Below, piece by piece: positions 7,435 through 23,418 of a DNA stretch of 64,000 nt. Origin of the DNA: Micromonospora coxensis (GTDB lineage: Bacteria; Actinomycetota; Actinomycetes; Mycobacteriales; Micromonosporaceae); assembly GCF_900090295.1 (NCBI RefSeq), contig NZ_LT607753.1, positions 3,720,001-3,784,000 on the forward strand, in the 5' to 3' direction. The notes below the pieces were generated by a model, which saw nothing but the letters and a program-made list of their open reading frames with translations, had not been told where the DNA came from and made no database searches. Numbering within the stretch: position 1 is the first letter of the stretch; each line of letters opens with the position of its first letter. The position numbers and the translations under genes were made by a program.

Positions 7435-9504
7435 TCAGTCGTCCAGCCAGTCGAGGCGGCGACCGCCCCGGTCCTGCGCCGGGGGCACGTCCGGCCGGGC
7501 CCGGCCCGCGGGGGCCTGGTCGCCGTAGTAGCCGCCGCCCTGCTGCTGGTCGTACCCGGCCGCGTCGTACCCGCCGCCACGCTGCTGCGGGGGCTGCTGG
7601 TCGTACCCGGCCTGCTGCTGGTCGTACCCGCCCTGGTGGCCGGGGTAGCCGCCCTGCTGGTCGTACCCGGCCTGGCCGGGGTAGCCGCCCTGCTGGTCGT
7701 ACCCGCCGCGCTGGTCGTACCCGTTGTCGTAGCCCTGTTGCGGGCCGGCGTCGTAGCCGCCGCCCGGCGCGCCGTACCCGTTGCCGCCCCGGTAGCCGCC
7801 GGTCGGCTCCTGACCGTAGCCCGGCTCGGGCTGGGCGTAGCTCTGCTCCGGCTGGTAGGTGCTGGTCGGGTACGGGTCGGCCGGCGGGGTGTAGTTGCCG
7901 GTGGACTCGCCGGTGTAGCGGCCGGTCGGCTCGTCGTACCGCTCGCCGTAGCCGCCGCCCTGCTCCGGCCCGGCGTAGCCGGGACCGCCAGCCGGGGCGC
8001 CGTAGTCGTTGCCGTAGCCGCCAGCGGCCGGGGCGTTGCCGTAGCCGGCGCCGGAGGCGGGCGCGTTGCCGTAGCCGCCGGCAGCGGCGCCGGCGGCGCC
8101 GTAACCGGGCTCGGTGCCGTAACCGCCGCCCGAGGCGGGGGCGTTGCCGTAGCCGGCGCCGGCGCCGGCGCCGGCGCCGGAGGCGGGGGCGCTGCCGTAG
8201 CCGCCACCGGAGGACGGCGCGTTGCCGTAGCCGCCCGGCTGGCCGTACCCGCCCTGGGCGGGCTCGTCGCCGTAGCCGCTGCCGGCCCAGCCGCCCGCTG
8301 CGGCGCCCGCGCCGTACGGCTGCGGCGGAGCCCCGTACGGGTCCGGCGGGACGTCGTCGACGATCGGGCGGTGCATCATCGTCGGCGCGTCGCTCAGCGA
8401 GGTGCCGCCGACCATCGTCGGGTCCGGCCCGGCGCCGACCCGGTTGACCACGCGGGTCTGGTCGTCGGCCCCGCGCAGCCCGCCCCGGGCGCCCGCGGCC
8501 GCGCCCGCCGCCGCCCCGACCGGGGCGGCGCCGTCGCCGTCCTCGTCGTCGGCGTTCTTGCGACGCATCCAGAGCAGCACGATCGTGCCGACGCCGGCCG
8601 CCACGAGCAGGCCGCCGAGCAGAATGACCAGGAACGAGCCCATCCCGCCGCCGTCGTCGTTCGAGGCGGCCTGGGGCTGAGCCGGGGTGGCCTCGGCGCT
8701 GGTGTCGGTGGCGTCCTCGGTCACCTCCTCGGTCGGCACCGCCTCGACGGAGGTCGACGGGGTGGCGCTCGGGGAGACCTCGACCTTGATCGGCAGGGTG
8801 ATCCGCTGGCCGGTCAGGCTCTGCCCGGCGCTCGCGTTGATCACCTTGGTGTTGACCGCGTCGGTGCCCTTGCTGGCGCCCAGGTCGATCCGGCCGGGGG
8901 CGATGGGCTGCGAGGAGGAGCCGGTGAACCGCCAGTTGCCGCTGCCGTCGCTGGTGGTCTGGTACTGGTGACCCTGGGAGTCGCGCAGCATCACCACGGC
9001 GTTGGGGACGGCGTCGCCGTTGGCGGCCACGACGACCTTGCCGGAGATCGACTTGACGGTCTGGGTCTCCGGCGGCCTGGTGGTGGGGGCCGCCTTGGCC
9101 TTGACGGTCACGGAGAGTGGCGCGGTGGCCGGGTCCGACTGGTCGGGTTGGACCTGCACGGTGGCGGAGTTGTTGCCGTCCGGCGCATTGTCGTTCGCCC
9201 TGAGGGTCAGCAGGACCCGCTTCGGGGTGCCGGGCGGGCCGTTGAAGTTGACCGTCCCGCAGCCGTTGCAGCTCACCCCCGAGGGCAGCCCGGTGACGCC
9301 GACCTGTGCGCTCTTGTCCTCGATGCTGGGGGTGATCGTCACGCTGACGGTGGTGTCGCTACCGGCGTTGATCGTCACCGAGCTGGGCGAGACGTTGACG
9401 TTCGCGGCGAGGGCCGGTGTGGCGGGGACGGTGAGCAGGGCGCCGGTAACCAGCGCTACGACCACACCGGCCCGCTGGCTCCAGGCACGTCGGTGTGTTG
9501 ACAC
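7435..9504 (-). CDS. Membrane protein with extracellular Ig/CnaB-like region and low-complexity Gly/Tyr/Gln cytoplasmic tail
   Basis: About 689 aa. Signal peptide to about residue 35 (cleavage near PALA). Then a beta-rich region with CNGC, followed by a carboxypeptidase-regulatory-like (CnaB-type) segment around 150-240. An acidic Thr/Pro stalk leads to one transmembrane helix near 291-315 followed by MRRK. The remaining 370 residues are predicted cytoplasmic and disordered, with repeats such as GGYGNAPASG and YDQQGGYPG. Composition is prion-like (Gly, Tyr, Gln, Asn, Pro). GTG 9504 is chosen because GGAAGG lies 8 bases upstream; GTG 9510 is the alternative. Function unknown; a surface sensor or scaffold is an inference. 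Confidence 0.85.
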   Translation of the reverse strand: MSTHRRAWSQRAGVVVALVTGALLTVPATPALAANVNVSPSSVTINAGSDTTVSVTITPSIEDKSAQVGVTGLPSGVSCNGCGTVNFNGPPGTPKRVLLTLRANDNAPDGNNSATVQVQPDQSDPATAPLSVTVKAKAAPTTRPPETQTVKSISGKVVVAANGDAVPNAVVMLRDSQGHQYQTTSDGSGNWRFTGSSSQPIAPGRIDLGASKGTDAVNTKVINASAGQSLTGQRITLPIKVEVSPSATPSTSVEAVPTEEVTEDATDTSAEATPAQPQAASNDDGGGMGSFLVILLGGLLVAAGVGTIVLLWMRRKNADDEDGDGAAPVGAAAGAAAGARGGLRGADDQTRVVNRVGAGPDPTMVGGTSLSDAPTMMHRPIVDDVPPDPYGAPPQPYGAGAAAGGWAGSGYGDEPAQGGYGQPGGYGNAPSSGGGYGSAPASGAGAGAGAGYGNAPASGGGYGTEPGYGAAGAAAGGYGNAPASGAGYGNAPAAGGYGNDYGAPAGGPGYAGPEQGGGYGERYDEPTGRYTGESTGNYTPPADPYPTSTYQPEQSYAQPEPGYGQEPTGGYRGGNGYGAPGGGYDAGPQQGYDNGYDQRGGYDQQGGYPGQAGYDQQGGYPGHQGGYDQQQAGYDQQPPQQRGGGYDAAGYDQQQGGGYYGDQAPAGRARPDVPPAQDRGGRRLDWLDD

Positions 9505-9658
9505 GTCCACCGCCTTCCGGTCTGACTTCCCCGGCCGGGTTTGAACCAGGGATCATCACGGTACGAATACGCCGTCGGCAACTATGCCTTGTCTGACCGG
9601 ATCGGCGCGACCCAGGGCCAGCGTCGACGCCGGCGGCATCGAGTCGTATCGTCCCGTC

Positions 9659-11774: not shown

Positions 11775-12929
11775 GTGACGCACGTGTCCGAGCGCAGCGG
11801 CGCAGCAAGCAGCCCGACCGGCGCCGGCGACGACCGCCAGCCCTGGACGGCCGGCACCGGCCGTACGACGCGCAGACGCTCGGTCTCGTACGCGGACGCC
11901 GGGGTGTCGATCGAGGCGGGCGACCGCGCGGTCGAGCTGCTCAAGTCCAAGGTGAAGCAGACCCGGCGCCCGGAGGTCATGGGCGACCTGGGCGGCTTCG
12001 CCGGCCTGTTCCGGCTGGACACGAAGAAGTACAAGAACCCGATCCTGGCCTCCTCCACCGACGGTGTGGGCACCAAGCTGGTGATCGCGCAGCAGATGGA
12101 CATCCACGACACGGTCGGCATCGACCTGGTCGCGATGGTCGTCGACGACCTGGTGGCCTGCGGCGCCGAGCCGTTGTTCCTGCTGGACTACATCGCCACC
12201 GGCGAGGTCGTCCCGGACCGGGTGGCCGAGATCGGCGCGGGCATCGCCGACGGCTGCCGGTACGCCGGCTGCGCCCTGCTCGGTGGCGAGACCGCCGAGC
12301 ACCCGGGCGTGCTGCGCCCCGACGAGTACGACATCTCCGCCACCGGTGTCGGCGTGGTGGAGGAGAGCGAGATCCTCAGCCCGGAGCGGGTCGAGGTCGG
12401 TGACGTGGTGATCGCCATGCGCTCGTCCGGCCTGCACTCCAACGGCTACTCGCTGGTGCGGCACGTGCTGCTGGGCGCCGGCCGGATGCGGCTGGACGTG
12501 GTGATCGAGGACTTCGGCCGGCAGCGCACCCTCGGCGAGGAGCTGCTCACCCCGACCAAGATCTACGCGCAGGACTGCCTCAAGCTGATCGCCGAGGCGG
12601 AGGTGCGGTCCATCGCCCACGTCACCGGCGGTGGCATCCCGGGCAACCTGGTGCGGATCCTGCCGGAGCACGTCGACGCGGTGGTCAACCGCTCCACCTG
12701 GAAGCCGCAGCCGATCTTCGACCTGATCCAGTCCAAGGGGCGGATCGAGGACCCGGAGATGGAGTCGACCTTCAACATGGGCGTCGGCATGTTCGCGATC
12801 GTCTCGGCGGAGGACGCCGACCGCGCGCTGGCCACCCTGGCCGGCCGTGGCGTGGACGCCTGGCAGGCCGGCGAGATCATCGAGGGCACCGGCAACGTGC
12901 AGATGATCGGCCAGCACACTCGGGGATGA
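11775..12929 (+). CDS. purM: Phosphoribosylformylglycinamidine cyclo-ligase (AIR synthase)
   Basis: 384 aa from GTG 11775, with GGGGAGA upstream. It converts FGAM to AIR using ATP. Family motifs include SYADAGVSI, the ATP-site ASSTDGVGTKL, LLGGETAEHPG, RSSGLHSNGYSL and VTGGGIPGNL. The first 35 residues are a low-complexity lead-in typical of actinobacterial PurM. It ends the purF-purM unit; its stop codon lies inside a hairpin. Confidence 0.97.
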   Translation: MTHVSERSGAASSPTGAGDDRQPWTAGTGRTTRRRSVSYADAGVSIEAGDRAVELLKSKVKQTRRPEVMGDLGGFAGLFRLDTKKYKNPILASSTDGVGTKLVIAQQMDIHDTVGIDLVAMVVDDLVACGAEPLFLLDYIATGEVVPDRVAEIGAGIADGCRYAGCALLGGETAEHPGVLRPDEYDISATGVGVVEESEILSPERVEVGDVVIAMRSSGLHSNGYSLVRHVLLGAGRMRLDVVIEDFGRQRTLGEELLTPTKIYAQDCLKLIAEAEVRSIAHVTGGGIPGNLVRILPEHVDAVVNRSTWKPQPIFDLIQSKGRIEDPEMESTFNMGVGMFAIVSAEDADRALATLAGRGVDAWQAGEIIEGTGNVQMIGQHTRG

Positions 12930-12966: not shown

Positions 12967-13011
12967 TTCACCCGAGTAGCCATCGCCGCCTAGCCTGAAG
13001 GGCACTTCAGG
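12967..13011 (+). promoter_or_regulatory. Candidate promoter/operator of the RiPP cassette
   Basis: TTCACC (12967-12972) and TAGCCT (12991-12996) are 18 bp apart and could be a promoter. An inverted repeat CCTGAAG/CTTCAGG (12994-13000, 13005-13011) overlaps the presumed transcription start, as an operator would. Weak pattern evidence only. Confidence 0.3.
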
Positions 13012-13029
13012 CACGGGGGAGGAGGGCCG

Positions 13030-14163
13030 ATGGCTGCTCGGGCACAGCCGGTGACGGGGATGCGCGGCATCGCGGCCGTCCCCTCGTACGTGGTGATGCA
13101 GCCGACGACGCTCTGCAACCTGGACTGCGCCTACTGCTACCTGCCGTTCCGCGCGGCGGACCGGCGGATGCCGGTGGCGGTGGCGGAGGCGGTGGCCGCC
13201 TCGGTCGAGGCGTGGGCGGCGTCGGGGCGGTTCTCGGTGGTGTGGCACGGCGGGGAGCCGCTGGCCGCCGGGCGGGAGCACCTGGCCGCGCTGATGGCCC
13301 CGTTCGGGTCGGGGGTGGAGCACCACGTCCAGACCAACGCCACGCTGATCGACGACGCCTGGTGCGCGTTCTTCGTCGAGCACGGGGTGCGGGTCAGCGT
13401 GAGCGTGGACGGGCCCCGGGAGCGCAACGGCGACCGGGTGACCCGGGGCGGGGCGCCGGCGTACGACCGGATCGTGCGCGGCGTCGAGGCGCTGCGCCGG
13501 CACGGCCTGCCCTTCTCGGCGTTGGCGGTGGTCGGCCGGCCCGGCCCGGGGCTCGCCACCGAGCTGTACGACTACTTCCTCGACCTCGGGTGCGACGTGC
13601 TCGGCGTCAACATCGAGGAGACCGAGGGGGTCAACACCCGGGGCAACGCGCACGACGTGGCGGCGGTGACCGCCTTCTGGGCCGAGCTGGTGGCGGCCTG
13701 GCGTCGGGCGCCGAGGATCCACCTGCGCGAGGTGGAGTGGTCGCTGCGGTACGCCGCGGCGGTGCTCGACGGCACCGCCGACGACCTGCTGCCCCGGCAG
13801 CTGGACCCGATCCCGACGGTCGGTCACGACGGTTCGGTGGTGGTGCTCTCCCCGGAGCTGGCCGGTTTCTCCGATCCCCGGTACGGCGACTTCAGCAGCG
13901 GCAACGTCCTGGTCACCCCGCTGGGCGAGATCCTGGCCGGCGCGGCGGACACCCCGTGGGTCGGCGAGTTCCTGGCCGGGGTCGAGGCGTGCCGGTCGTC
14001 GTGTGCGTACTTCGGCTTCTGCGGCGGCGGCCACGCGGCCAACCGCTACTTCGAGCAGGGCCGGTTCGACGGTACGGAGACCGAGCACTGCCGCAACAGC
14101 AAGATCCGCCTACTGGAGGGAGTGTTGGAGCATGCCCGAGACCACGAGTCACCGGCGGCCTGA
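13030..14163 (+). CDS. amcB: Radical SAM/SPASM peptide maturase, cyclophane-forming (AmcB-like)
   Basis: 377 aa from ATG 13030, with GGAGG just upstream. The radical SAM cluster motif CX3CX2C is Cys29, Cys33 and Cys36 (CNLDCAYC). WHGGEPL, VQTNATLIDD and SVDGPRERN are typical of SPASM peptide maturases. The C-terminal auxiliary-cluster region has Cys321, Cys325, Cys331 and Cys354. The gene directly downstream encodes a short peptide ending in aromatic-X-Asn triplets. That pairing fits the actinobacterial maturases that join aromatic side chains to a residue two positions away (three-residue cyclophanes). Catalysis on this peptide is inferred, not shown. Confidence 0.88.
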   Translation: MAARAQPVTGMRGIAAVPSYVVMQPTTLCNLDCAYCYLPFRAADRRMPVAVAEAVAASVEAWAASGRFSVVWHGGEPLAAGREHLAALMAPFGSGVEHHVQTNATLIDDAWCAFFVEHGVRVSVSVDGPRERNGDRVTRGGAPAYDRIVRGVEALRRHGLPFSALAVVGRPGPGLATELYDYFLDLGCDVLGVNIEETEGVNTRGNAHDVAAVTAFWAELVAAWRRAPRIHLREVEWSLRYAAAVLDGTADDLLPRQLDPIPTVGHDGSVVVLSPELAGFSDPRYGDFSSGNVLVTPLGEILAGAADTPWVGEFLAGVEACRSSCAYFGFCGGGHAANRYFEQGRFDGTETEHCRNSKIRLLEGVLEHARDHESPAA

Positions 14164-14368
14164 GCGCGTCGGGGGTGGCGTCCCGGATCCGGTCGTCGAC
14201 CGGGTGCGTCAGGCGGCCACCGGGTTGACCGCCCTGCTCCGGGAGGCCGAGGCCGCGCGGCGGTCACGGGCGGAGGTGTCGGGCCCGGAGGGCTCCGGCG
14301 CGGTCTGCGCCTGGAACCACTTCGAGAACATCCCGACCTTCTACAACTGGAACAACCGGCCGCGCTGA
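14132..14368 (+). CDS. amcA: RiPP precursor peptide with multiple cyclophane motifs (AmcA-like)
   Basis: 78 aa from ATG 14132, overlapping the maturase end by 32 bases, with TTGGAG upstream. Residues 1-55 form a charged helical leader. Residues 56-78 are the likely core: after GAVCA come W61-N-H, F64-E-N, then IPT, F70-Y-N and W73-N-N, and a final RPR. Three triplets are aromatic-X-Asn and the first is Trp-Asn-His, the layout expected for several three-residue cyclophanes. A cysteine at 59 precedes the core motifs. No protease or exporter gene is adjacent, so removal of the leader must use a distant enzyme. Confidence 0.85.
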   Translation: MPETTSHRRPERVGGGVPDPVVDRVRQAATGLTALLREAEAARRSRAEVSGPEGSGAVCAWNHFENIPTFYNWNNRPR

Positions 14369-14515: not shown

Positions 14516-14731
14516 TCAGCGGGTCGGAGGAACCCAGGTGTCCGGGTCGTCGTCCGCGTGATCCTCATCATCGTCGTCGACATACTCTTTGTAGTCGTCG
14601 TCGAAGTTGTGCTCAGACTTACCAGCACCCGCCAGTTCGCGCTGCAAGGCGGTGAGGTCGGTGTTCGGGGAGTGGTACTTCAACTCCCGGGCCACCTTCG
14701 TCTGCTTGGCCTTAGCACGGCCGCGCCCCAT
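14516..14731 (-). CDS. DUF3073-family small protein
   Basis: 71 aa from ATG 14731. The basic N-terminus MGRGRAKAKQTKVARELKY, then SPNTDLTALQREL, then an Asp-rich tail ending DPDTWVPPTR match the actinobacterial DUF3073 family, usually encoded next to purM. Function unknown. The charge split (basic head, acidic tail) suggests nucleic-acid or ribosome contact, but this is inference. A longer in-frame extension to 14794 lacks homology. Here the RiPP cassette separates it from purM. Confidence 0.9.
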   Translation of the reverse strand: MGRGRAKAKQTKVARELKYHSPNTDLTALQRELAGAGKSEHNFDDDYKEYVDDDDEDHADDDPDTWVPPTR

Positions 14732-15020
14732 GGCTCGACCCCCTCGCACAGAATGCGGGGCAGCCCGAAGGCGGGCCCCGATGACGTCAGGCATCTCTCG
14801 TGGCTCTTACGGTACATGGGGATGCCACCGTTCGGCACCTCGGGTTACCGTCTGCCGGCCCTGCGCGTCGCAGTCATCCGGACGTCACCGAGTGTACCCG
14901 GTAAGGAGCGACGGCGGTAACCGGTCGTGACACCGGGCAGAAGGCCACGAACCGGCCGAATCCATCGTACCCGCGGGGTGTCCCGGGATGCGGACGGCTC
15001 CGCACCCCGGGACGGCGTCC

Positions 15021-21053: not shown

Positions 21054-22406
21054 TCAGTGCCGGATCGGCACGCCCGCCTCGTCCAGCGCCGTGATCAGCC
21101 CGGCGGACTCGGCGAAGCCGATGACCAGCACCGCCTCCGGGCCGTACGTCTTGATCTCCTTGGCCATGCCGCTGAAGTCCACCGGGGCGGCCTGGGCGTC
21201 CTCCGGCGGCTCGTAGGTCAGCAGCTTCACCCGGTCGGCGCCGATGCCGGCCCGCTCCAGCTCGGCCCGGACGGTCTCCTGGAGGCCCTCGCCGTAGGAG
21301 TCCTTGCGGGCCACCACGACGATCCGGTCCGGGCCGTCGCGCAGCATGACGTCGGCCAGGGCGCGGCCCTGGAGGCTGTCCGGCGGGGCGGTACGGAAGT
21401 ACAGGCCCTTGTCGTCGGCCTTGCTCAGCCCGGAGTCGGTGTTCGAGGGCGAGAAGAGGATCCGGCCGGCCGCCACCACGTCCGGCAGCACGGCGGCGGA
21501 GATGCCGGAACCGCCGGCGCCGATGATGACGTGCACCTTGTCGCGGATGTGCGAGGCGACGGTGGCCTTGGCGACCGCCACGCTGGTGCCGTCGTCGCCG
21601 TCGATCCAGACCATCGGCTCACCGAGCACGCCACCCGCGGCGTTGATCTCCCGGACCGCCAGGGCGGCGCCGGCCGCCAGCGGCGGGTTGGCCAGGGCCA
21701 GGTCACCGGTCTTCGGCAGCAGCCCGCCGAGGATCAGCGGGGAGCCGTCGCTGCGGTCGGTGCGGCCACCCTGCTGCTTCTTCGGCTTCGGCGGGAGCTT
21801 GGTGCTCGCCCCGGACTCGTCACCGGCGCCGACGAACTCGGTCTTCGCGTCGTTGATCTTCTGGTCGTCGAAGTGCATCGTCGCGTAGCTCGCGGTGGCC
21901 GGCTCGCCGTTGTCGGTGAAGCCGGCCCGCGACAGCGAGGGGCCGCGGTACTCGATGTCCTGCCCGGCGCGGGCCAGCGCCAGGCAGGCCTTCGTCTCCG
22001 TGCAGCGCTGGCCGTTGGTGGTCACCCCGACGATCTGCCGGGCGATGGCCGCCGGGTCGGTGCTCCCGGCGAGCTGCGCCGCCAACGCGCTGATCACCAC
22101 CGCGTCGTACGCCTCGGCGGCGTAGAGGTAGTCCTTCAGGTCGGGGTCGACCGCGAGCAGTCGCTCCTTGAAGTCCTCGGTCAACGGCGTGAGCGGGGTG
22201 GTGCCCTTCATGCCGTCGACCAGATTGCCCCGATCCTTCAACTCCCCCGGGAAGGAGTTCAGCATGTTGCCGTCGGTGCCGTAGAGGCGCACCTGTGGGG
22301 CTGCCGAGTCCTCGGGCTTGTCGGTGGTCCCGCATGCGCTGGTGGCGAGCAGGAACGCCGCACCCGCCGCCAGGATGGCAGCGCGCGGGCCGCGTGTTGC
22401 GAGCAT
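21054..22406 (-). CDS. ABC-type substrate-binding lipoprotein with circularly permuted lobes
   Basis: 450 aa from ATG 22406. Signal peptide with Cys25 (ATSAC) suggests a lipoprotein. It belongs to the branched-chain amino-acid/amide (LivK-like) type I binding proteins, but the order is swapped. Residues 37-195 match the normal second lobe: VRLYGTDGNML, DGMKGTTP, YAAEAYDAVVISALAAQ, TTNGQRC, then a MHFDDQ end. A Lys/Pro/Gln linker (about 196-223) follows. Residues 224-450 match the normal first lobe: LGGLLPKTGDLA, AVREINAAGGVLGEP, SPSNTDSGL, FRTAPPDSLQG, ending at the interlobe crossover ALDEAGVPIRH. Both lobes look complete. No permease or ATPase gene is near. Confidence 0.9.
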   Translation of the reverse strand: MLATRGPRAAILAAGAAFLLATSACGTTDKPEDSAAPQVRLYGTDGNMLNSFPGELKDRGNLVDGMKGTTPLTPLTEDFKERLLAVDPDLKDYLYAAEAYDAVVISALAAQLAGSTDPAAIARQIVGVTTNGQRCTETKACLALARAGQDIEYRGPSLSRAGFTDNGEPATASYATMHFDDQKINDAKTEFVGAGDESGASTKLPPKPKKQQGGRTDRSDGSPLILGGLLPKTGDLALANPPLAAGAALAVREINAAGGVLGEPMVWIDGDDGTSVAVAKATVASHIRDKVHVIIGAGGSGISAAVLPDVVAAGRILFSPSNTDSGLSKADDKGLYFRTAPPDSLQGRALADVMLRDGPDRIVVVARKDSYGEGLQETVRAELERAGIGADRVKLLTYEPPEDAQAAPVDFSGMAKEIKTYGPEAVLVIGFAESAGLITALDEAGVPIRH

Positions 22407-22571
22407 CGTCGTCCTTCCTCCGGGGAGGTTCGCTGCGCACCATAGCGTGCCGACGCCGCTGGTGGGAGCGTGGAGTCCACCCCCGTCGGTGGCCCGACAG
22501 CCGCCCGTACGCTGCGTCACCGCAGGGAGATTCCGGGTCACCGCTTGACCCCCGGTCCTACCGTTGCCCAG

Positions 22572-22961
22572 GTGACCGACCTGCCGCAACAGACGTTCGA
22601 CGACGCGACCGCCGTGCTCCGTTCGGCCCTGGCCGGCGACGGTGACGCGGTGGTGGGAACCTTCGACGCGGTGGTCGACCGGTCGGGGCTCGAAGGGGCG
22701 TACGGGGTGGCCTGGTGCCTCGCCGCCACCATGGTCGGGGACCCGCCGCCCTCCGGGACCGCCGCGCTGGACTTCCCCGGCATCGACGAGGCCCGGTACG
22801 ACGCCCGCTGGGTGGCCCGCTTCGTCAGCGCGTACGCCAACCACGACGCGGACACCGGGGAGGCCCTCTTCGGGGCGGCCGCCGCCGACGGCCTGCTGCC
22901 CGAGTGCCTGCTCACCCTCGCCGGCTCGACCGTGGCCACCCTGCGCAGTCGGGCCCGCTGA
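22572..22961 (+). CDS. Small hypothetical protein, Asp/Ala-rich
   Basis: 129 aa from GTG 22572 (VTDLPQQTFDDATAVLRSAL). No family recognised. It is a soluble, acidic, mostly helical protein with no signal peptide. AWCLAATMVGDPP and WVARFVSAYANHDADTGEALF are its most distinctive parts. The gene is divergent from the binding-protein gene and convergent with a secreted-protein gene, with a hairpin after its stop. Confidence 0.75.
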   Translation: MTDLPQQTFDDATAVLRSALAGDGDAVVGTFDAVVDRSGLEGAYGVAWCLAATMVGDPPPSGTAALDFPGIDEARYDARWVARFVSAYANHDADTGEALFGAAAADGLLPECLLTLAGSTVATLRSRAR

Positions 22962-22968
22962 CGGCGGT

Positions 22969-22996
22969 GGGGCGCCCGGCCGGAGCCGGGCACCCC
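22969..22996. terminator. Hairpin between convergent genes
   Basis: GGGG-C-GCCCGGC (22969-22980) pairs with GCCGGGC-A-CCCC (22985-22996) around a CGGA loop, giving an 11-bp stem with one internal mismatch. It lies between the small hypothetical gene and the secreted-protein gene. Confidence 0.7.
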
Positions 22997-23004
22997 GTGG
23001 TCGC

Positions 23005-23418
23005 TCAGTACGCGTGGTACGCGACCAGCGGCTCGTACTCGTAGCGCAGGGTCTCGAAGCGGACCTGGAACCGGACGCCGTCACGGACGTTCGTCGCCAC
23101 CGTGATGAAGTCGGACCTCGACGGCAGGTACGTCCGGTAGTTGCACTTGTCCGTCTTGTCGATGAAGATCACGCACGCCTCGACGCCGAACTCGCTGGCG
23201 TTGCGCACGTTGATGTCCCGGCACCGGGTGCTGGTGCGGTACGGCCCGGCGTCACCACCCCAACCGGCGGTCTGGAAGTACGAGCGGACCGCCCCGCCGT
23301 AGCAGGTGGCGTACGACCCGAACAGGTTCGTCTCGGGGGCGGCGTGGGCGGGGGAGCCGAGGGCGAGCAGGGACAGCGCCGCCGTGAGTGCCGTCAGGCG
23401 GGCGACCGGGGATGCCAT
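23005..23418 (-). CDS. Small secreted protein, unknown function
   Basis: 137 aa from ATG 23418. Signal peptide of about 26 residues ending SPAHA. The mature part (about 111 aa) has four cysteines (CYGG, STRCRDI, EACVIF, DKCNYR), which could form two disulfides, and many Tyr/Phe/Arg residues. It resembles small actinomycete exported proteins of unknown role. The GTG/ATG region has a GGAGG at about 23426-23430 on the coding strand, supporting this start. Confidence 0.82.
   Translation of the reverse strand: MASPVARLTALTAALSLLALGSPAHAAPETNLFGSYATCYGGAVRSYFQTAGWGGDAGPYRTSTRCRDINVRNASEFGVEACVIFIDKTDKCNYRTYLPSRSDFITVATNVRDGVRFQVRFETLRYEYEPLVAYHAY

Follow-up and report, generated by a model that had tools for sequence, protein, structure and literature searches.

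A putative AmcB/AmcA triceptide cassette with a frozen precursor core at the purM–DUF3073 junction in Micromonosporaceae

The gene pair lying between purM and a DUF3073 gene in Micromonospora coxensis is read here, with slightly better than even confidence, as a triceptide cassette composed of the maturase AmcB and a type 3a AmcA precursor, the C-terminal peptide of which would work in or on the producing cell, fulfilling a conserved physiological job rather than serving as a variable antibiotic. The family itself is already known; the interest lies in the combination of a frozen core with a conserved position. The cores of RiPPs often vary while their leaders are kept. Type 3a AmcA is the reverse of this usual arrangement, with the core kept and the leader drifting, and by pN/pS the AmcA core is more constrained than the adjacent purine enzyme PurM. 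Should the physiological role prove true, the product would be a rare example of a radical-SAM peptide within the core biology of a major antibiotic-producing family. That role is directly testable because amcB and amcA are only two genes, are single-copy in the genomes searched, occupy a conserved position and are naturally absent from basal relatives.

The family name, the family-wide conservation of position and the frozen core all go beyond the first-pass annotation of this DNA. A literature search, mostly at the level of listings and with the likely source paper for the family outside its reach, found no mention of either the purM–DUF3073 position or the frozen core, and priority for these two observations is uncertain.

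Gene content and family membership

The window, by which we mean the whole analysed stretch of 64,000 nucleotides, is part of a single-contig genome of 6.77 Mb. The upstream neighbour of the cassette, purM (phosphoribosylformylglycinamidine cyclo-ligase; 11775..12929, + strand), scores 445.9 bits against TIGR00878, for which the cut-off is 236.35. It is followed on the same strand by amcB (13030..14163), encoding a radical SAM/SPASM-like cyclophane-forming peptide maturase of 377 amino acids (NF041718, 522.7 bits, cut-off 425), and by type 3a amcA (14132..14368), encoding a precursor peptide of 78 amino acids (NF041722, 118.8 bits, cut-off 65). The DUF3073 gene downstream is convergent (14516..14794, − strand; PF11273, 85.4 bits, cut-off 25). 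The two reading frames and their overlap of 32 nt, described in the first-pass annotation, are present, the overlap falling at 14132-14163.

Two sets of loci were used for comparison. The first comprises the best 80 of 228 confirmed relatives and leans to close relatives; the second comprises 47 other loci in which purM lies beside a purM-type amcB in the fetched stretches. The sets overlap, sharing for example Micromonospora halophytica and Micromonospora sp. KC606. The overlap between the genes is exactly 32 nt in 38/47 of the second set, amcA is called as starting within amcB in all 47, and in the window a GGAG-like ribosome site is present inside amcB, ahead of amcA. Translation of AmcB and AmcA is probably coupled.

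Judged by its profile matches, the pair is a member of an already named family (NF041718 with NF041722). The original suggestion of a cyclophane RiPP cassette is thus supported by matches to curated AmcB/AmcA cyclophane families, from which the chemistry would follow. Chance can be excluded because both proteins exceed the curated NCBIfam cut-offs and because the four-gene order purM+, amcB+, amcA+, DUF3073− recurs in 80/80 loci (best 80 of 228 relatives). With the AMC triceptides as a class the pair shares gene adjacency and C-terminal aromatic-X-Asn motifs, and there is no tested difference between them. A 2022 paper in ACS Chem Biol by Phan and Morinaka, the likely source of the family, reportedly describes AMC. 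Among the loci of the best 80 of 228 relatives, the nearest AmcB is that of Micromonospora halophytica, at 96% identity.

The cysteines previously picked out in the maturase, Cys29/33/36 (CX3CX2C) and Cys321/325/331/354, are all present and do not vary across two alignments, one of 10 relatives and one of 20. A full SPASM domain has seven cysteines, and the four in the C-terminal part of AmcB suggest, as a guess, that it probably carries one auxiliary cluster. By sequence profile, the closest proteins of solved structure are the anaerobic sulfatase maturases of PDB entries 4k37 and 4k36 (E 2e-28); these enzymes act on sulfatases, and AmcB differs in having only four C-terminal cysteines. The next-best family for the maturase is GrrM/OscB (TIGR04261), to which it scores 232.5 bits, short of the cut-off of 310. 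OscB likewise makes Phe/Trp-X-Asn rings and links Phe C4 or Trp C7 to the Asn beta-carbon (PMC11002830); the ring motifs of AmcA match the chemistry as set out there.

Fourteen other genes of the window, a subset of its gene content, were scanned by profile as neighbours. They include purine genes, DUF3073, a Glu/Leu/Trp-type dehydrogenase and a MerR-like regulator of BldC-like type. The earlier statement that no transporter or protease is encoded nearby holds for the directly adjacent genes: no exporter, protease or immunity gene was found directly beside amcBA among those 14. It does not extend further out, since a trypsin-family serine protease gene (1644-2417, − strand; PF00089, 97.5 bits) lies about 10.6 kb upstream of the cassette and a gene with a periplasmic-binding-protein domain (21054-23084) about 6.7 kb downstream. 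The protease gene is located in the purine gene region, and nothing here ties it to AMC.

The AmcA core and its proposed role

The frozen core is the 22-residue stretch AVCAWNHFENIPTFYNWNNRPR forming residues 57-78 of AmcA (14300..14365, + strand). It contains three candidate ring motifs of aromatic-X-Asn type, F64-E-N66, F70-Y-N72 and W73-N-N75, with W61-N-H63 as a possible fourth. The core is identical in 80/80 loci (best 80 of 228 relatives), one of these having an extra C-terminal Gln, and in 45/47 of the other loci; of the two exceptions, one carries an additional Ser ahead of the final Arg and the other (G023) has a divergent core.

Constraint was assessed quantitatively through pN/pS in 45 genomes. 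The leader gave 0.60 and the 12 codons just before the core 0.98, against 0.005 for the core, a figure describing a group of genomes that was itself assembled by identity of the core. Its small non-synonymous count is due to paths between Arg codons; no residue differs. For comparison, PurM yields 0.20 in the same 45 genomes, and AmcB 0.28 in 30 of the 45, the start-motif pattern having missed 15. Among close relatives, the core is under strong purifying selection at the protein level, with the leader drifting.

The frozen core is common to Micromonospora, Salinispora, Actinoplanes/Paractinoplanes and Plantactinospora, and the identical core recurs in genera fetched later (for example g15, g20, g22, g24, g25, g31 and g44). 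A Tyr71Phe variant is found in genera g16, g17, g19 and g42. Genus g21 has a type 3b core, WRPFEDAFPTFYQFTNRPR, scoring 104 bits to NF041723; 3b-like cores are present in g3, g5, g9, g27, g38, g39 and g43; the core of g23 is of a third type. Aligned by hand, the divergent cores of deeper genera retain the final three aromatic-X-X triads. Given these other cores, only part of the clade shows the freezing, and this weighs against a universal role. A search for AmcA_3a found one match in each positive genome, 41/61 genomes being positive and 36 of these over the cut-off.

In the mechanism that we propose, AmcB would bind the AmcA leader and, using SAM-derived radicals, would couple the aromatic rings of F64, F70 and W73, each to the beta-carbon of the Asn located two positions further along. 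In this chemistry a hydrogen is abstracted from that beta-carbon by the 5'-deoxyadenosyl radical. FEN, FYN and WNN would give three small cyclophane rings, with a loss of 2 Da each and 6 Da in total, and a fourth might form at W61-H63; three rings are favoured over four by the absence of the W61 triad from g9 and g39. The codons immediately preceding the core are unconstrained, and this speaks against a leader protease with sequence specificity on that side; the observation is compatible with trimming as far as the first ring or with a leader that is never removed. The cross-linked C-terminal peptide would most likely have a conserved cofactor-, regulator- or signal-like role in crown Micromonosporaceae. 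We infer the cross-links and their number, the binding and removal of the leader and the housekeeping role.

That nearly every close relative examined has an identical core points to a basic cell function and not a weapon. A more specific proposal, somewhat on the doubtful side, is that the type-3a peptide serves as a housekeeping RiPP not previously recognised as such. It would be an intracellular peptide of 22 residues with three cross-links, or the C-terminal tail of a small protein, and would have held a single exact sequence over much of the crown Micromonosporaceae radiation because, like a cofactor or small regulator, it binds a conserved essential partner. Consistent with such a role, the core is under strong purifying selection in the 45 same-core genomes and the gene is single-copy in the 41/61 positive ones; against it, a conserved target or receptor outside the cell could also freeze the core. 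Cofactor RiPPs such as PQQ and mycofactocin offer a comparison, being tied to lineages, single-copy and nearly invariant in their cores. amcBA shares with them the nearly invariant core (in close relatives), the single copy (in genomes searched) and the tie to a lineage but differs in that the neighbours scanned include no dedicated peptidase, further maturation enzyme, product-using enzyme or dependent dehydrogenase directly beside it.

It is unlikely, in our estimation, that the cassette makes an ordinary natural-product RiPP, namely a peptide secreted for antimicrobial or competitive purposes, with export and trimming left to the general machinery of the host. Darobactin, the product of another radical SAM maturase, is described as active against Gram-negative bacteria (PMC9055067), and the protease and solute-binding-domain genes some 10.6 and 6.7 kb distant could serve such a peptide. 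Nevertheless, the core is frozen across several genera, amcA is single-copy in each positive genome searched, and the neighbours scanned include no directly adjacent exporter or immunity gene. Furthermore, neither the plasmid nor the phage collection yielded a close relative of AmcB: the eight plasmid records that matched do not exceed 36% identity and are annotated as GrrM/OscB or sulfatase-maturase-like, and the phage matches listed (10 of 14) all lie at or below 31.2%, none of them covering 80% of the query.

Improbable to a similar degree is a secreted, pheromone-like signal peptide held in sequence by a conserved receptor. Such a signal would account both for the freezing of all 22 residues and for the drift of the leader, but neither a receptor gene nor an exporter gene was seen beside amcBA among the neighbours scanned. 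In addition, signal systems often diversify between species, whereas this core is common to the four named groups of genera from Micromonospora to Plantactinospora. That the C-terminal stretch, lying at a coding end ahead of a convergent gene, is kept for a nucleic-acid reason (an overlapping element or RNA structure) and not as a peptide is very hard to credit, being contradicted by free synonymous variation: the 45 genomes with the identical core use 41 distinct DNA versions of it, with pS at 0.33 compared with 0.31 in PurM and no amino-acid change.

The junction and the descent of the pair

The four-gene order was also seen throughout the set of 47 loci, a set chosen in advance to have purM on the same stretch as a purM-type amcB. 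A broader comparison of coordinates covered 136 genomes with an AMC match, 117 of which also have a DUF3073 match, among the matches listed; in 115/117 of these, a convergent DUF3073 match lies no more than 3 kb from amcB, with a median gap of 409 nt. For the two exceptions, G193 and G219, the matches listed showed a type-1 copy alone, and both genomes proved syntenic on fetching (L194, L202).

True rearrangements occur in a few genera. An inverted purF-purM is seen in g16 and g17, where amcBA lies with DUF3073; in g9 and g39 the pair stays with purM, and DUF3073 lies at least 2.7 kb away. Neither purM nor DUF3073 is thus an obligatory neighbour. Dependence on purM transcription is unlikely, given the inversion in g16 and g17 that leaves amcBA beside DUF3073.

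In 9/13 genomes examined from outside the family, no more than 0.8 kb separates the end of the purM match from a convergent DUF3073 match, so that adjacency of the two genes looks ancestral; in the remaining four something lies between them. This bears out the earlier view that the cassette sits between genes that are usually neighbours, and the carriers form one clade. Comparison of the junction across Micromonosporaceae, as had been proposed, further indicates that the insertion is old, is common to the family crown and is not peculiar to this genome. Two loci of g40 that do not have amcB (L155, L157) hold in this junction a protein of 171 amino acids which by eye resembles a GNAT acetyltransferase, showing that the junction accepts other insertions.

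In a sample of 250 Micromonosporaceae genomes, NF041718 is over the cut-off in 208. These do not represent the purM-locus type alone, because some pass through a second, type-1 AmcB (40-44% identity); G041 carries only this type-1 AmcB, as far as its assembly shows. Passes are far scarcer in the wider samples: 25/200 genomes at the level of the order (24 in Micromonosporaceae, plus G771), 6/246 in the class (three from the genus of the window) and 2/396 in the phylum (both from that genus). Among the 42 family genomes with no pass, 38 come from genera g4, g7, g11, g12, g13, g14, g26, g35 and g40; the other four (G043, G059, G063, G089) are from carrier genera or are poor assemblies, and G043 and G063 do hold pieces of amcBA at contig ends. 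Absence of the pair from at least 38 of the 250 sampled genomes, and apparently from G041, implies that its function is not needed family-wide.

In a tree of PurM, all 52 carriers fall into a single clade (support 0.876, parent node 1.0), which contains 0/15 non-carriers. The history is most simply reconstructed as one insertion or gain followed by retention. Distances between AmcB proteins are correlated with those between the corresponding PurM proteins (r 0.879, n=47; reached in 0/1000 permutations), which fits descent without transfer. A recent insertion or mobile cassette was rejected on the basis of the tree, which fits a single gain, and of this correlation.

Upstream elements and a second type of AmcB

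A candidate promoter, TTCACC - 18 nt - TAGCCT, precedes amcB (12967..12996, + strand) and was recognised by consensus match and conservation. CCTAGCCT occurs upstream of amcB in 80/80 loci (best 80 of 228 relatives), and CCTA[AG]CCT or CATAGCCT in 43/47 of the other loci, the strict pattern being missing in four. A wider promoter pattern was sought in 14 loci, consisting of these four and loci from rearranged or deeper genera, and was present in one (G044); on inspection, TTAGCCT could be seen in G119 and G184 and CCTAGTCT in G021. In g16, g17, g19 and g42, amcB starts about 10-110 nt behind another gene, with no promoter-like site there. A universal promoter for amcB is ruled out by the pattern misses in rearranged and deeper genera. 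At five loci of these last four genera (L311, L321, L338, L316, L315), amcB lies just behind a gene with an RRLDWLDD-like ending; the window gene at 7435-9510 also ends in this way, and in g16 and g17 such an ending goes with the inverted purF-purM.

An inverted repeat, GCCTGAAG-GGCA-CTTCAGGC (12993..13012, + strand), overlaps both the -10-like site and the position at which transcription is expected to begin. A stem of at least 6 bp is present at the equivalent place in 38/80 loci (best 80 of 228 relatives), compared with 2.4 expected after shuffling. The repeats at L203-L282 have a common stem with a loop of varying length. Some Actinoplanes-type loci have a different stem in the same position (ACGTGA..TCACGT), and this substitution hints at an RNA hairpin and not a DNA operator.

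AMC type 1, in which the AmcA_1 precursor (NF041721) carries FDN/WDN motifs, belongs to the same AmcB family as the purM-locus pair. Some genomes with the purM-locus pair also carry it, as do other actinobacterial families; it lies at other loci and has a different core, and its AmcB, 40-44% identical to that of the purM locus, forms a separate clade (21 tips, support 0.974). Second AmcB genes were seen at L183-L193 and L195-L198 (genomes G239, G223, G211, G219, G221, G177, G229, G156, G123, G131, G193, G068, G215, G171 and G168) and at L125, L127, L129, L130, L138 and L139; wherever the precursor was read, it was a type-1 FDN/WDN peptide. At L185, the one such locus scanned, there are an XRE-type regulator, a pentapeptide-repeat protein and, about 4 kb on, a phage-type integrase, the last a hint that the type-1 locus may be mobile. 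A final variation is seen at L170 (G968), where the FDN/WDN motif occurs at the C-terminus of the maturase frame itself, a maturase-precursor fusion.
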